IMG/VR virus record: IMGVR_UViG_3300017986_000052
Span: 1 to 41,573 of that record
DNA from: a virus
DNA length: 41,573 nucleotides
Reading direction: 5' to 3' (one strand)
In this document: positions 1,228 to 6,483 of the stretch, one piece after another
Layout: each line of letters begins with the position of its first letter
Position numbering within the stretch: position 1 is the first letter of the stretch
The notes under the pieces: generated by a model
Seen by the model: the letters and a program-made list of their open reading frames with translations, nothing else
What the model was told of the DNA's origin: nothing
The model's database searches: none
Program-made: the position numbers and the translations under genes

Positions 1228-2112
1228 ATGTCATTTGAAACACTTAAACGCAATCGCGGTTCTAATATCAGTAAAATCATTAAAGCAGCAGAAGCCACTA
1301 ATACTGGTGAAACTAAATCATACGTTGATGATAGAATATGGAAACCAACAGTTGATAAAGCAGGTAATGGTTATGCTGTGATCAGATTTCTTCCTGGTAC
1401 AGAAGATAATCTTCCATTCGTAAGATATTGGGATCATGGTTTTAAAGGCCCTACTGGTCAATGGTATATTGAAAATTCACTTACTTCAATAGGTCAACCT
1501 GATCCAGTTGGTGAACTTAACTCTAGACTTTGGAACTCAGGTATTGAGTCCGATAAGGATAGAGCAAGAACTCAAAAGAGAAGATTGCATTACGTAACTA
1601 ACATCTATGTAGTTAGCGATCCATCTGCACCTCAAAATGAAGGCAAGGTATTCTTATATAAGTTTGGTAAGAAAATCTTTGATAAGATTTATGATCTTAT
1701 GAATCCTGCATTTGCCGATGAAACACCAATTGACCCATTTGATTTTTGGGAAGGTGCTGATTTTAAACTTAAGATCAGAAATGTTGAAGGTTATAGAAAC
1801 TATGATAAATCAGAATTCTCTTCTGCAGCTCCGTTATTAAATGCGGATGAAGCTAAGCTGGAAGAAGTTTATAGCAAGTTGCATGATCTATCAGAATTTA
1901 CTAATCCTAAAAACTATAAATCATATGATGAACTTAAGACAAAACTTATGAGAGTGTTAGGTGAACAAGCCGCTGCTGGTGCCTATACGGTACAAGAAGA
2001 AATTAAGTTAAATAATCCTGAGCCGGCCGTTGAGCCAGTTACTGCTGAAGATATGAGTAGTGATGATGAGGATACTTTATCTTATTTCTCTAAACTTGCA
2101 AAGCAAGATTAA
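1228..2112 (+). CDS. 32: gp32, single-stranded DNA binding protein
   Basis: A 294-residue homologue of T4 gp32 (301 residues), which coats single-stranded DNA at the replication fork and in recombination. Diagnostic stretches are AGNGYAVIRFLP (about 46-57), HGFKG....WYIE (about 70-81), NEGKVFLYKFGKKIFDKI (about 137-154), FWEGADFKLKIRNVEGYRNYD (about 173-193) and YDELKTKL near 238. The basic N-terminus (LKRNRG) fits the cooperativity region. The C-terminus is acidic (SSDDEDTLS), as needed for contacts with replication partners. Oddity: the protein contains no cysteine at all, so the Cys ligands of the T4 zinc site (C77, C87, C90) are absent, although the His of HGF is kept. Its stop overlaps the stop of the convergent tape measure gene through TTAA at 2109-2112. 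Confidence 0.95.
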   Translation: MSFETLKRNRGSNISKIIKAAEATNTGETKSYVDDRIWKPTVDKAGNGYAVIRFLPGTEDNLPFVRYWDHGFKGPTGQWYIENSLTSIGQPDPVGELNSRLWNSGIESDKDRARTQKRRLHYVTNIYVVSDPSAPQNEGKVFLYKFGKKIFDKIYDLMNPAFADETPIDPFDFWEGADFKLKIRNVEGYRNYDKSEFSSAAPLLNADEAKLEEVYSKLHDLSEFTNPKNYKSYDELKTKLMRVLGEQAAAGAYTVQEEIKLNNPEPAVEPVTAEDMSSDDEDTLSYFSKLAKQD

Positions 2113-3800
2113 CCAACATTCCATCCAAGCATCTGGTCTTGCAGGTCTACTGCAGGACCAGACGATATTAGAGCATTTGTTGTATTACGGTTGTTTATTG
2201 TTTGATTAGAGTCATTTGATATTACCACATTACTTTTAGAAGAGCTACTATTATTAGTTGTATTAGAAGGTACTGTTGATTTTCCAGTTTCAGGTGGATT
2301 TATGTTAGATTTTTGAAGTTGACTGGAAGGTTCTATTGTATTAGTTTTGCCTAATATCATATTTACTTTGTTCATCTGCTTAACTAAATCATCTACCTTT
2401 AAGTCTGGAGATAAAAACCCTTTTCCAAAATCGACTTCTGGTATTCCATCAAAAAATCCGGTACCTATTTTTCCACCATTAGCCATTTTATCAATTAAAT
2501 CAAGTTGGATGCCCATTCCAGCAATCATGTCTTTAACACTTTTTTCAAATCCTTCAAGACTTACTTTTCCTAAATCATTTAAGTTACCCATAAATTTCTT
2601 TAATGCGGCACTGAGCTTATCTAAATTATCAGCAACTGATACATCAATAGTTTTAAGAGGTTCCATAGCATCAACCATGCTTTGAATCATGTTTGCTCTT
2701 GTGGTTTTTTGATCTTTTAAATCTGTTCCAAATAAGAAGTTGACAATTTTTTTAGCGCCATCAATTAGACCATCAACTAATTGAACTCCGCCTGTGCCTA
2801 CCATTGCTGATAATAAAGCAGGTCCAATTCCAGCGATTGCAGTTATTTTACTCAATAAACCTTCAGCATTTATTTTATTTAATTCTGATAATCCTCCAGC
2901 TATATTGGTAACTAAAGTTTTAAATGCACTACCGTCTACACCTAATACAGCACCTAGCTTAGAAAATCCAGCTAAAGATGTGATAAAGGCTCCAATTCCA
3001 ACACCTATTGCTCCAATTCCTAGTGCTGCTGCTTGAGCTCCTCCAGGAAATAAAGCTAATAATGCACCTGACCCCATAGCGGCGCCTAGTGCTGCAAATT
3101 CTTTAGATCCAAATGCGCTAAGACCACCTGCAATATTTGTTAATAATTTCTTTAAGTTTTCCCCTTGGTCACCACCCATCATAGACATTAAAGCATCTGC
3201 TCCAGCCAATGCAGTAAAAAAACCGGCCATGCCTACACCTACGGCAACTAAACCTTTTGCAGTACCTTTTGGGAATATTATACCTGCTGCTAAAACCGTA
3301 CCTAATGCTAAGAATTCTTTTTTACCAAACGCGCTTAAACCTTCAGCTAAATTGGTTAATAATTTTTTTATACCTTCACCAGCATCTTTTGATGCAAATT
3401 TTTGTATAATAGCTTCAGCGCCAGCTAATCCTAAAAAGAATGCACCTAATCCAACACCGGCAGGTCCTAATGATGCCAATATCTTTGCAACACCGCCTCC
3501 TACAGCTTTAGCTAATAACGCAAGACCACCTAAGAATCCTATTCCCTTTAAACCCTTTAAACTTCCAAGTAATCCACCATCTGCTTTTTTGACTTGTTCA
3601 GTAACACCGGATGTTGCCGCTTTTCCTTTGGCAGTAGATTTTTCTCTTGATGCTTCAAGATCCATTTTAGATTTTTTAACAAAGTAGCTTGATACAGTGT
3701 TATGTAAACTATCAACCGCTTGCGTTGTATCTATGGTAGAATCATTATTAGTTTTGAGTTGGTCAATAACATCACCTAATGTTGAATATCTTCTTGCCAT
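2109..3800 (-). CDS. Tail tape measure protein (T4 gp29-like role)
   Basis: A 563-residue protein, close to T4 gp29 (590 residues). The centre is Gly/Ala-rich, hydrophobic and repetitive. About residues 145-171, 217-243 and 294-320 share the pattern K-[LT]-L-[LV]-T-N-[IL]-A-x-G-L-S-x, spaced 72-77 residues apart. The N-terminus (1-75) is polar and the C-terminus (490-563) is Ser/Asn-rich. A tape measure fills the tail tube, sets its length and is expelled on infection. The assignment rests on size, composition, repeats and position directly after gp26 and the small gp51-like frame on the same strand, the usual chaperone-then-tape order. A moderate purine-rich ribosome site precedes the ATG. 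Sequence identity to gp29 is not obvious by eye, so no gene number is given. Confidence 0.75.
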   Translation of the reverse strand: MARRYSTLGDVIDQLKTNNDSTIDTTQAVDSLHNTVSSYFVKKSKMDLEASREKSTAKGKAATSGVTEQVKKADGGLLGSLKGLKGIGFLGGLALLAKAVGGGVAKILASLGPAGVGLGAFFLGLAGAEAIIQKFASKDAGEGIKKLLTNLAEGLSAFGKKEFLALGTVLAAGIIFPKGTAKGLVAVGVGMAGFFTALAGADALMSMMGGDQGENLKKLLTNIAGGLSAFGSKEFAALGAAMGSGALLALFPGGAQAAALGIGAIGVGIGAFITSLAGFSKLGAVLGVDGSAFKTLVTNIAGGLSELNKINAEGLLSKITAIAGIGPALLSAMVGTGGVQLVDGLIDGAKKIVNFLFGTDLKDQKTTRANMIQSMVDAMEPLKTIDVSVADNLDKLSAALKKFMGNLNDLGKVSLEGFEKSVKDMIAGMGIQLDLIDKMANGGKIGTGFFDGIPEVDFGKGFLSPDLKVDDLVKQMNKVNMILGKTNTIEPSSQLQKSNINPPETGKSTVPSNTTNNSSSSKSNVVISNDSNQTINNRNTTNALISSGPAVDLQDQMLGWNVG

Positions 3801-3801
3801 G

Positions 3802-3924
3802 TCATCTTCTTTCTTGTTTGCTTTCTTCTTCCTTTATGTGGTCTATTAGCATTCCCACATAAACTTCTTTTTCCCATGGTATCAAATTGTCTATCTCACT
3901 TAAAGAATATTTGTGATGCTGCAT
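3802..3924 (-). CDS. 51: gp51-like small protein / frameshift extension of gp26
   Basis: A 40-codon frame starting MQHHKYSLSE and ending KQERR, with PWEKEVYVGMLIDHIKEEE in the middle. It sits between gp26 and the tape measure gene. The ATG at 3924 has no Shine-Dalgarno sequence (upstream AATTTTAACTTA). The frame is open upstream through SNYYETNFNL to 3981, where it lies -1 to the end of gp26 at a slippery T TTT TTA. A -1 shift there would add 59 residues to gp26, giving about 294 residues. The NYYE...QHHKYS...PWE pattern recalls small proteins beside tape measure genes in many tailed phages. In T4, gp51 is a hub-assembly factor absent from the mature virion. Whether this is a free protein, a fusion, or both cannot be decided here. 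Confidence 0.6.
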   Translation of the reverse strand: MQHHKYSLSEIDNLIPWEKEVYVGMLIDHIKEEESKQERR

Positions 3925-3977
3925 TAAGTTAAAATTAGTCTCATAATAATTACTTAATGAGTTATGAGATAGACTTA

Positions 3978-4685
3978 TTATAAAAAACTTTGCAGGCCCT
4001 CCACTTTAATTTCATTATGTGTATTACATTTGATGCAATCAAATTCGATATCATGAGATAACTTAGGTATATTCTCAATATATTCTCTTATCTTAGTAAA
4101 TTGTTCTTGTGTCATTGATTCAATAAATTCTTGAAATTCTTCTTTTTCAATATCCTTAATATCAATTCTTTCATCATCCGTCATTACAGCATTGATTGAT
4201 TCTTTTATTAATCCAAACACTTGAACTGTTGGAGATTCTTCGTTTAATGATTCACTAGCCGCCATTTGACTGAAAGTAGGATGCTTCATTTCAACCACTA
4301 TCTTATCAGTTATATTAATTCTATTGTTGCTATTATCAACTTTTATGTTTATATCATCAACATTAATACTAACATCATTTTCAGTTGCACACTCTTTACA
4401 TTTAAAAATCAACTTAGATGTTTCTCCAACTGACTTTGCTCTTATCTTTAAAAATAAATATTCAATGTCATATGAAGTTAAAGACTTCATGTTTAATTCT
4501 TCGTATACGCATGACTTAACTGTGTCCATTACGGCACCGGCTATTTGCATAGCATCTTGTGTTTCTAAACCTATTAATAAAATTTTTTCTTCTTTAACTA
4601 AAAAAGGCCTAAATGTAATTTCATCATTTGTTGAAGGTACCACTGCTTTGTATTTTGGTACGTCATTTAATTTAGGTAATCCCAT
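3978..4685 (-). CDS. 26: gp26, baseplate hub assembly protein (T4_baseplate family), probable tail assembly chaperone
   Basis: A 235-residue protein of the T4 gp26 type (T4: 208 residues). The N-terminus has the family pattern FRPFLVKEEKILLIGLET (about 25-42). The central part carries CKEC at 96-99 and the C-terminal part CIKC at 217-220, which together could form a four-cysteine zinc ribbon. In T4, gp26 is needed to assemble the central hub but is not clearly a component of the finished baseplate. A strong Shine-Dalgarno (AAGGAG) precedes the ATG. Immediately before the stop lies a slippery T TTT TTA, so a minority of ribosomes may extend the protein into the gp51-like frame. The upstream gene is a tail-tube-fold protein and the downstream gene the tape measure. 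Confidence 0.85.
   Translation of the reverse strand: MGLPKLNDVPKYKAVVPSTNDEITFRPFLVKEEKILLIGLETQDAMQIAGAVMDTVKSCVYEELNMKSLTSYDIEYLFLKIRAKSVGETSKLIFKCKECATENDVSINVDDINIKVDNSNNRINITDKIVVEMKHPTFSQMAASESLNEESPTVQVFGLIKESINAVMTDDERIDIKDIEKEEFQEFIESMTQEQFTKIREYIENIPKLSHDIEFDCIKCNTHNEIKVEGLQSFL
3981..3987 (-). promoter_or_regulatory. Putative -1 programmed frameshift slippery heptamer (T TTT TTA)
   Basis: On the - strand the gp26 end reads CAA AGT TTT TTA TAA. The heptamer T TTT TTA is in the zero-frame phase X XXY YYZ required for tandem -1 slippage, and the gp26 stop is the next codon. After a -1 shift the frame reads ATA ATA AGT and stays open for 59 codons to the stop at 3802-3804. Eleven bases downstream is an 8-bp stem (TCTCATAA at 3969-3962 with TTATGAGA at 3946-3939, 15-nt loop) that could act as stimulator, although it is AT-rich. 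Confidence 0.55.
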
Positions 4686-4698
4686 ACTATTTTACTCC

Positions 4699-5388
4699 TT
4701 ATAATAAATCAATTCCACCGAGAGGTGTATCAATATCCATGTTAATAAATCCTTGAGTGCTACTTGAACGAGCCCAATTTGTATATGCAAAAGTTACAGT
4801 CAATTGAACTAATCCGTCTAGTTCGTTACTTAATTCTATTGCACTAGTTGATACAGGAAAAGCATCTAGTAACTCTACAGAATAAACAGTTCCACCACCA
4901 ATGCCAGCATTAAATCTAACTGGTCCAACTTGTTTTGAAAATCCTTTTAATGGTTGACGTAGTTGGTGTATAGTTACAGACTTAGCATACTGGCTTTTAT
5001 AGTTACTTGTAAATGCTCGAGCTCCATCTTCTGGAATTGCTGTATTTCTCCATGCATCAAAATATTCTTTTACGCCGTAATCATTCATTAAGTAAAAAGT
5101 CATTGAAACGTCGTCGATAGCATATCCGTACGCTACTTTTTGAAATTCCATTCCTATTCTTCTGTCATTAGTTAATGTAATCTTTCCAGGCATAGTCGCA
5201 TTAGAGCAAAGAATATTTAATTCTCTGCCAGAAGCTCCGCCTCCACCGCCTGTCAACATTCCAATTATACCATTTAGTAATCCTCCACCACCGCCAAATG
5301 ATGTTGGAAATGTAACTAAGAATCTGTTTGCTCGTGCAAATCCTAATTTTGTGTTAGCCAAAGCTTTTAATTCATCTACACTAGCCAT
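4699..5388 (-). CDS. 54: Tail-tube-fold baseplate protein, probable gp54 (tail tube initiator)
   Basis: A 229-residue protein with the tail-tube fold signature of the gp19/gp54 families. The N-terminus has ANRFLVTFP; then NILCSNATMPG (about 58-68), VAYGYAIDDVSMTFYLMNDYG (about 86-106) and a C-terminal VELLDAFPVSTSAIELSNE (about 171-189) followed by the strand LVQLTVTFAYTNW. A glycine-rich loop (GGGGG...GGGGG, about 33-52) interrupts the first strands. In T4, gp54 (320 residues) caps the hub and starts tube polymerisation on gp48. Position next to gp26 and the tape measure favours gp54 over gp19, which usually lies beside the sheath gene. It is shorter than T4 gp54, so gp19 itself or another tube-like protein remains possible. 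It overlaps the upstream gene by 8 bases. Confidence 0.6.
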   Translation of the reverse strand: MASVDELKALANTKLGFARANRFLVTFPTSFGGGGGLLNGIIGMLTGGGGGASGRELNILCSNATMPGKITLTNDRRIGMEFQKVAYGYAIDDVSMTFYLMNDYGVKEYFDAWRNTAIPEDGARAFTSNYKSQYAKSVTIHQLRQPLKGFSKQVGPVRFNAGIGGGTVYSVELLDAFPVSTSAIELSNELDGLVQLTVTFAYTNWARSSSTQGFINMDIDTPLGGIDLL

Positions 5389-5976: not shown

Positions 5977-6483
5977 CTATTTATATCTTTTCTTACGCTT
6001 TTTACGATATGATGGTAGTGGTTTATATTTCTTAAGTTTACCCGGAACTGGCTTAGTTAAAAGTTTCATTTCTTGTAAAGTTTTTTCTGTCCACACTTGA
6101 AACTCCCATCCTCTATCTTTTGCATAATTATCTGCAGCTTCCCATTTATTCATATTCTTAACATATGTTAAGCCTTCTGTAATATATCTTTTAGTTTTTT
6201 TAGGACCAGTTGGCGGTACTGTTTCTTTTTCGGGTTTAATTTCAACTAGCAACGTCTTATCTTCAAACACAATTTTCATATCAACATAATACCTATGATA
6301 TTTTTTATCAACGTCATAGTAGTATGGAACTATTATTTCTTCTGAGCTCCAGCTCTTTACTTTATCATTCTTATCACACCATTGAAATACAGCCTTTTCC
6401 CATAAAGATCTGTATACTATATTGGTGTGGTCACCTTTATACTTAGCTGTGTTTTTCGCCTTGTAAAGACCAGAATAAACCAT
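5977..6483 (-). CDS. 4: gp4, head completion protein (nuclease-fold)
   Basis: A 168-residue homologue of T4 gp4 (150 residues), needed to finish the DNA-filled head so that tails can attach. The sequence carries the family's order of motifs: VYRSLWEKAVFQW (about 23-35), SWSSEEIIVPYY (44-55), HRYYVDMKIVF (63-73), TLLVEIKP (77-84), KKTKRYITEGLTYVKN (95-110) and DRGWEFQVWTEKTL (123-136). E29, D68, E81 and K83 fit a PD-(D/E)XK pattern like the TnsA nuclease fold; a nuclease fold has been proposed for this family, but activity here is inference. The C-terminus is very basic (KKRKKRYK). It begins the leftward unit, divergent from gp48, with a near-consensus TATAGATA about 40 bases upstream. Confidence 0.9.
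   Translation of the reverse strand: MVYSGLYKAKNTAKYKGDHTNIVYRSLWEKAVFQWCDKNDKVKSWSSEEIIVPYYYDVDKKYHRYYVDMKIVFEDKTLLVEIKPEKETVPPTGPKKTKRYITEGLTYVKNMNKWEAADNYAKDRGWEFQVWTEKTLQEMKLLTKPVPGKLKKYKPLPSYRKKRKKRYK
5978..5985 (-). promoter_or_regulatory. TATAAATA late-promoter-like box, - strand (ambiguous)
   Basis: A perfect TATAAATA followed by GAT, as at the + strand late promoters. It overlaps the last codons of gp4 (TAT AAA TAG) and lies 6 bases before the next start codon. A transcript starting at the usual distance would begin at or just before the ATG at 5971 and be leaderless for that gene, so it may be a coincidence of the gp4 C-terminus. Confidence 0.3.

Follow-up and report, generated by a model that had tools for sequence, protein, structure and literature searches.

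The window, the whole stretch of 41,573 nucleotides analysed here (IMG/VR virus record IMGVR_UViG_3300017986_000052), carries on its minus strand a set of genes in the order tube, gp26, extension, tape measure. Identification of the tape measure is by inference in the window and by family matches in Pelagibacter phage HTVC008M. The features of the locus are as follows.

4699-5388, minus strand: tail-tube-like gene directly upstream of gp26 (phrog_45, E=5.6e-26; phrog_3629, E=5e-19)
3978-4685, minus strand: gp26, candidate short tail assembly chaperone (TAC-N), the non-shifted product of 235 aa (T4_baseplate and phrog_150 profile matches)
3997-4002, minus strand: GGAGGG, a Shine-Dalgarno-like sequence within gp26 and 9 nt 5′ of the heptamer (sequence; enrichment in relatives)
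3981-3987, minus strand: slippery heptamer T_TTT_TTA in the phase of gp26, fit for tandem −1 slippage (sequence; conserved in relatives)
3978-3980, minus strand: gp26 stop codon TAA, directly 3′ of the heptamer (sequence)
3802-3981, minus strand: −1 frame extension with the gp51 domain, 59 sense codons (3981-3805) and a stop (3804-3802) (phrog_634, tblastn, dN/dS)
3939-3969, minus strand: 8-bp hairpin, arms 3969-3962 and 3946-3939, 11 nt past the heptamer (weak, unconserved)
3922-3924, minus strand: first ATG of the −1 frame, inside a conserved protein block, an implausible gene start (no Shine-Dalgarno; relatives)
2109-3800, minus strand: probable tape measure gene, 563 aa (position, size, hydrophobic Gly-rich repeats)

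The gp26 protein gave a full-length match to T4_baseplate (PF12322; E=2.2e-58, profile positions 2-218 of 219) and a match to phrog_150 (E=1.2e-58). Its fold was modelled with confidence (pLDDT 87), and a BFVD fold search with the model retrieved gp26 proteins from other phages. In the PDB, the HK97 chaperone 2ob9 came up at rank 10-11 without significance (E=1.9, probability 0.28-0.38) and was discarded as too weak to count as a decisive fold match. The protein has two CxxC pairs (KCKEC, DCIKC) of zinc-ribbon-like appearance, which are lost in many cyanophage relatives, where an NPxTG-type sequence takes their place. Profile searches of the Pfam and PHROG type found no family for the tape measure candidate. 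In HTVC008M, the gene at the equivalent place, which lies beyond one additional small gene, gives matches to tape measure families; a direct BLAST of the window candidate against this counterpart gave no match. Several relatives have, between the extension and the tape measure, a small gene (about 110-150 aa) that is absent from the window (L011, 3225-3554; L012, 3211-3543; L014, 3185-3631; L015, 3205-3624; L018, 3189-3614). Elsewhere in the window, the gene for a head closure protein (gp4-like, phrog_218; 5977-6483, minus strand) shows an additional match to a TnsA-like endonuclease N-terminal domain (E=2.3e-15).

The slippery heptamer and its possible flanking signals

Read on the minus strand, gp26 ends in GGC CTG CAA AGT TTT TTA TAA. 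The initial annotation had noted that T TTT TTA stands here in the phase for tandem −1 slippage, next to the stop, and that the −1 frame then stays open for 59 codons up to the tape measure start. Both readings hold on the sequence: the extension stop lies 1 nt from the next start codon, the following gene beginning at 3800. Related loci were gathered through gp26 protein similarity or through places encoding the extension, not through the heptamer motif. All 100 other non-T4 loci of this main set carry an in-phase T_TTT_TTN, 0-3 codons before the gp26 stop, together with an open −1 frame of 57-70 codons encoding the same conserved protein. The heptamer was also present in eight of ten further, more divergent loci, those of Aeh1, VmeM-32, Milchi, Cr30, Mendera, IG49, a Desulfovibrio phage and a RHph-like contig. 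Since the motif occurs in phase only about 0.0007 times per codon (some 7 per 10,000) in other ORFs of the same loci, its presence at the end of gp26 is not a matter of chance. When the heptamer-bearing loci were clustered at 60% protein identity, it stood in 57 of 57 representatives; p-values over all loci ignore relatedness, and this 57-cluster repeat provides the safer figure throughout.

Codon choice at the site points in the same direction. The first Phe codon of the slip site is TTT in 94 of 94 loci, as against 26% TTC among the Phe codons elsewhere in gp26, and the codon before it ends in T in 94 of 94, compared with about 25% before the other Phe codons. On the evidence of sequence evolution, we consider the heptamer and its phase to be established. 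Exceptions were found in the Ackermannviridae, where Bue1 (L115) and Kuja (L120) keep the −1 extension behind degenerate sites (G_ATT_TTC and C_CTT_TTT, respectively). These sites, at gp26 ends located at 2783 in Erwinia phage Bue1 and at 2432 in Vibrio phage Kuja, recall the T7 gene 10 type. A mixed alignment of divergent gp26 sequences (A4) contained no stretch conserved enough for scanning.

The GGAGGG sequence inside gp26 is too far from any gp51 start in the window to play a role in initiation. A Shine-Dalgarno-like element lies 6-16 nt upstream of the heptamer in 75 of 94 relatives, compared with 6.4% of control positions, and in 39 of the 57 cluster representatives, compared with 6.5%; the enrichment across relatives is approximately tenfold. 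The Glu codon of the Glu-Gly pair at the element is biased towards GAG and away from GAA (53:22, against 10:44 at the remaining Glu-Gly pairs; p=5e-9, relatedness ignored). By analogy, GGAGGG is a putative frameshift stimulator of the dnaX type, which probably raises the rate of slippage by pairing with 16S rRNA. The initial annotation had missed this element and had turned instead to a stem of 8 bp, 11 bases downstream. The stem does exist at that place, but its candidacy as a conserved stimulator was rejected on account of its weak fold and its decay in close relatives. Its predicted free energy is about −5.6 kcal/mol, which shuffling shows to be ordinary for such a sequence (z −0.60); seven of the eight pairs are kept in one close relative (L004) and six in another (L022), which has no stable fold, and the mean over all loci is 4.6 of 8. 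Thus, the hairpin in the window is probably incidental. Over all loci, downstream folding is on average stronger than in synonymous controls, with a mean z of −1.50 versus −0.31, and over cluster representatives the figures are −0.82 and −0.26 (p=0.002). Some lineages possess strong downstream hairpins, such as that of S-PM2 (−14 kcal/mol); no strong conserved downstream structure was found in the window's own lineage.

Access to the −1 frame

The extension matches phrog_634, the gp51 family labelled 'baseplate hub assembly catalyst' (E=3e-27), and a tblastn search with it matched 549 phage records, in alignments that begin at the heptamer. Joined to gp26, it is predicted to yield a long form of 294 aa (TAC-NC). 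Among the listed matches, public records annotate the extension as a separate gp51, call it hypothetical or leave it out, separate gp51 being the annotation in most of them. Taken at face value, this annotation would make gp51 a small gene in its own right, expressed by ribosomes that re-initiate past the gp26 stop, and the poly-T run incidental. Such a scheme fits Cr30, Mendera, RHph_I1_9 and S-PM2, where a start codon overlaps the gp26 stop or lies close to it and some re-initiation is possible. In the window, however, the −1 frame offers no ATG, GTG or TTG before the ATG at 3924, and no Shine-Dalgarno is found in the ACTAATTTTAACTTA preceding that ATG; gp26 has AAGGAG in front of its own ATG, a difference already pointed out in the initial annotation. 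Relatives show the same deficiency: ATG is missing from the first 20 extension codons in 53 of 95, ATG, GTG and TTG are all missing from the first 18 in 34 of 95, and a start with a Shine-Dalgarno in front of it is lacking from the first 20 in 92 of 95.

These start-less codons are nevertheless under strong protein-level selection. In the 57 loci lacking ATG there, dN/dS for extension codons 5-20 is 0.058 in the −1 frame and 1.3 and 1.8 in the other two, in line with the view of the initial annotation that a conserved-looking segment lies in part upstream of any ATG. Therefore, independent initiation cannot explain these codons, whereas tandem −1 slippage, judged from the sequences, can. Nor does re-initiation provide a reason for the invariant in-phase heptamer. 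Given the missing starts and the selection on the codons, we rejected independent translation of gp51 for the window and most relatives, and hold it very improbable as a general explanation. In Cr30, Mendera and RHph_I1_9 (L118, L119 and L018), the gp51 start overlaps the gp26 stop (TGATG), and there termination-reinitiation might act beside the frameshift, adding free gp51.

The same fused protein could be obtained if RNA polymerase, rather than the ribosome, slipped on the run of six Ts. Polymerase slippage usually requires runs longer than six, and in most relatives (T_TTT_TTC) the run is only six long; moreover, the conserved codon phase and the upstream Shine-Dalgarno-like element fit ribosomal slippage better. 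We thus accord transcriptional slippage very little credit, the same as re-initiation. Finally, sequencing error or decay of a gp26-gp51 fusion, conceivable inasmuch as T4-type phages have the fusion as one ORF, is refuted by 100 independent contigs and genomes from several phage families, all with the same split at the same site and in the same frame, and can for practical purposes be dismissed.

Conserved heptamer, conserved phase and coding potential together argue for the −1 frameshift between gp26 and a gp51-like extension that the initial annotation had put forward. To judge by these comparisons, a one-base backward slip of the ribosome where gp26 ends is almost certain, both in the phage of the window, which is marine and T4-like, and in nearly all of its relatives. 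In all likelihood, gp26 is made in two lengths by a −1 slip on T_TTT_TTA, with the gp51 domain at the C terminus of the long form.

The T4 arrangement and a model for two chaperone lengths

In T4 the two proteins, gp26 (208 aa) and gp51 (249 aa), come from two genes that lie on opposite strands. T4_baseplate matches both proteins over its full length, and T4 gp51 additionally matches phrog_634. The profile of the predicted fusion aligns across the junction with T4-type gp51, a single ORF (a Rosetta-stone fusion), and the profile of the extension matches the gp51 C terminus, not T4 gp26. By these profile comparisons, T4 gp51 is a full-length gp26 homologue with the extension fused in frame; T4 would thus have split the short form (gp26) from the long one. 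This natural fusion was modelled in place of the 294-aa product, which spans two frames. The order of elements in the model is much like that in window gp26, with four C-terminal helices added. Sequence evolution establishes both the coding status of the extension and the fusion of the two domains. Within the Straboviridae, the KVP40-like nt-1, VmeM-32 and Aeh1 keep the frameshift, so that the two-gene state of T4 looks derived and its arrangement becomes readable as such. The initial annotation had extended the frameshift, if real, to gp26/gp51 of T4-like phages at large and had overlooked the exception of T4 itself. In one IMG/VR contig (L110, around 3001-3746), a T4-type gp51 gene is broken in frame, possibly by a sequencing indel.

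We propose the following model. For most ribosomes translation would end at the TAA that follows T_TTT_TTA, with the 235-aa short form as the product. In a minority of ribosomes, the two tRNAs would instead move one base back on the heptamer and pair anew with TTT TTT; reading would go on for 59 more codons and yield the 294-aa form with the gp51 domain at its C terminus. Pairing of the upstream Shine-Dalgarno-like sequence with 16S rRNA would probably increase this minority, as in E. coli dnaX. We infer both the two products and their ratio. If lambda gpG/gpGT is a guide, the tape measure would be bound by the long form and coated by the short one, which would also recruit tube subunits. A chaperone role is attributed to gp26 because of the gene order and the parallels with T4 and lambda. 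At the sequence level, short and long forms sharing the N domain are provided by frameshifting here and by the separate gp26 and gp51 genes in T4.

Under this model, what is called gp51 in T4-like phages, the marine ones and many others, would be the frameshifted tail of gp26 and not a separate gene, so that many public genomes lack the long chaperone or misplace it. The family lends itself well to comparative study of the reason for which tail assembly maintains a short-to-long ratio, and the upstream Shine-Dalgarno-like element presents a simple, testable control of that ratio. More speculatively, the ratio signal may be ancestral and consist of three parts (an internal Shine-Dalgarno, T_TTT_TTN and an optional, lineage-specific hairpin), kept in marine, Vibrio, Aeromonas, rhizobial and sulfate-reducer phages and swapped only in the T4 branch for duplication plus in-frame fusion; we advance this tentatively, as an idea that could well be wrong.

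Frameshifting in the chaperones of T4-like phages is not new, contrary to what the initial annotation had supposed. The study by Vladimirov, Gautam and Davidson (2022, Virology 566:9-15) on T4-like tail assembly chaperones is cited for poly-T sequences that serve as −1 slippery sites in the TAC-N genes of these phages (PMC12846349) and for the replacement of frameshifting, in some of them, by two genes, a short one and a long fusion (PMC10885494). As far as these citing papers convey it, the class is already known. No earlier description in cyanophages was found in the open literature, where the 2022 study is represented by the papers that cite it. What may be undescribed is the use of an internal Shine-Dalgarno as a tuner of frameshifting in phage tails, together with the wide spread of the signal. 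In Vandenendeviridae and Andersonviridae, the TAC locus has a GTTTTT slippery motif where TAC-N ends, a poly-T site for −1 slippage, and the downstream frame is routinely mis-annotated as a separate gene (PMC12846349). A poly-T site so placed is shared with the window; the families and the motif are different.

Comparison with T4 sets two opposite-strand genes for the short and long forms, of the same T4_baseplate family as window gp26 and with the extension carried by gp51, against one gene and a −1 frameshift. The likeness to lambda gpG/gpGT, drawn in the initial annotation, is supported by gene order and by the frameshifted extension: in both cases, a short form and a frameshifted long form are encoded just upstream of the tape measure, with the slip near the end of the short gene. 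Such a frameshift in tail genes is said to have been found conserved by Xu, Hendrix and Duda in 2004. The lambda heptamer is G_GGA_AAG and thus different from the T_TTT_TTN type of the window; unlike in lambda, small genes can separate the extension from the tape measure in relatives of the window. Family searches found no sequence relation between the window chaperone and lambda gpG/gpGT. With E. coli dnaX, the window has in common an internal Shine-Dalgarno-like sequence upstream of an X_XXY_YYZ heptamer; it differs in that the heptamer is T-rich, not A-rich, and that its lineage has no conserved strong hairpin. In dnaX, the Shine-Dalgarno-like sequence lies about 10 nt upstream of the heptamer. 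That internal sequence stimulates −1 frameshifting (PMC5600365).
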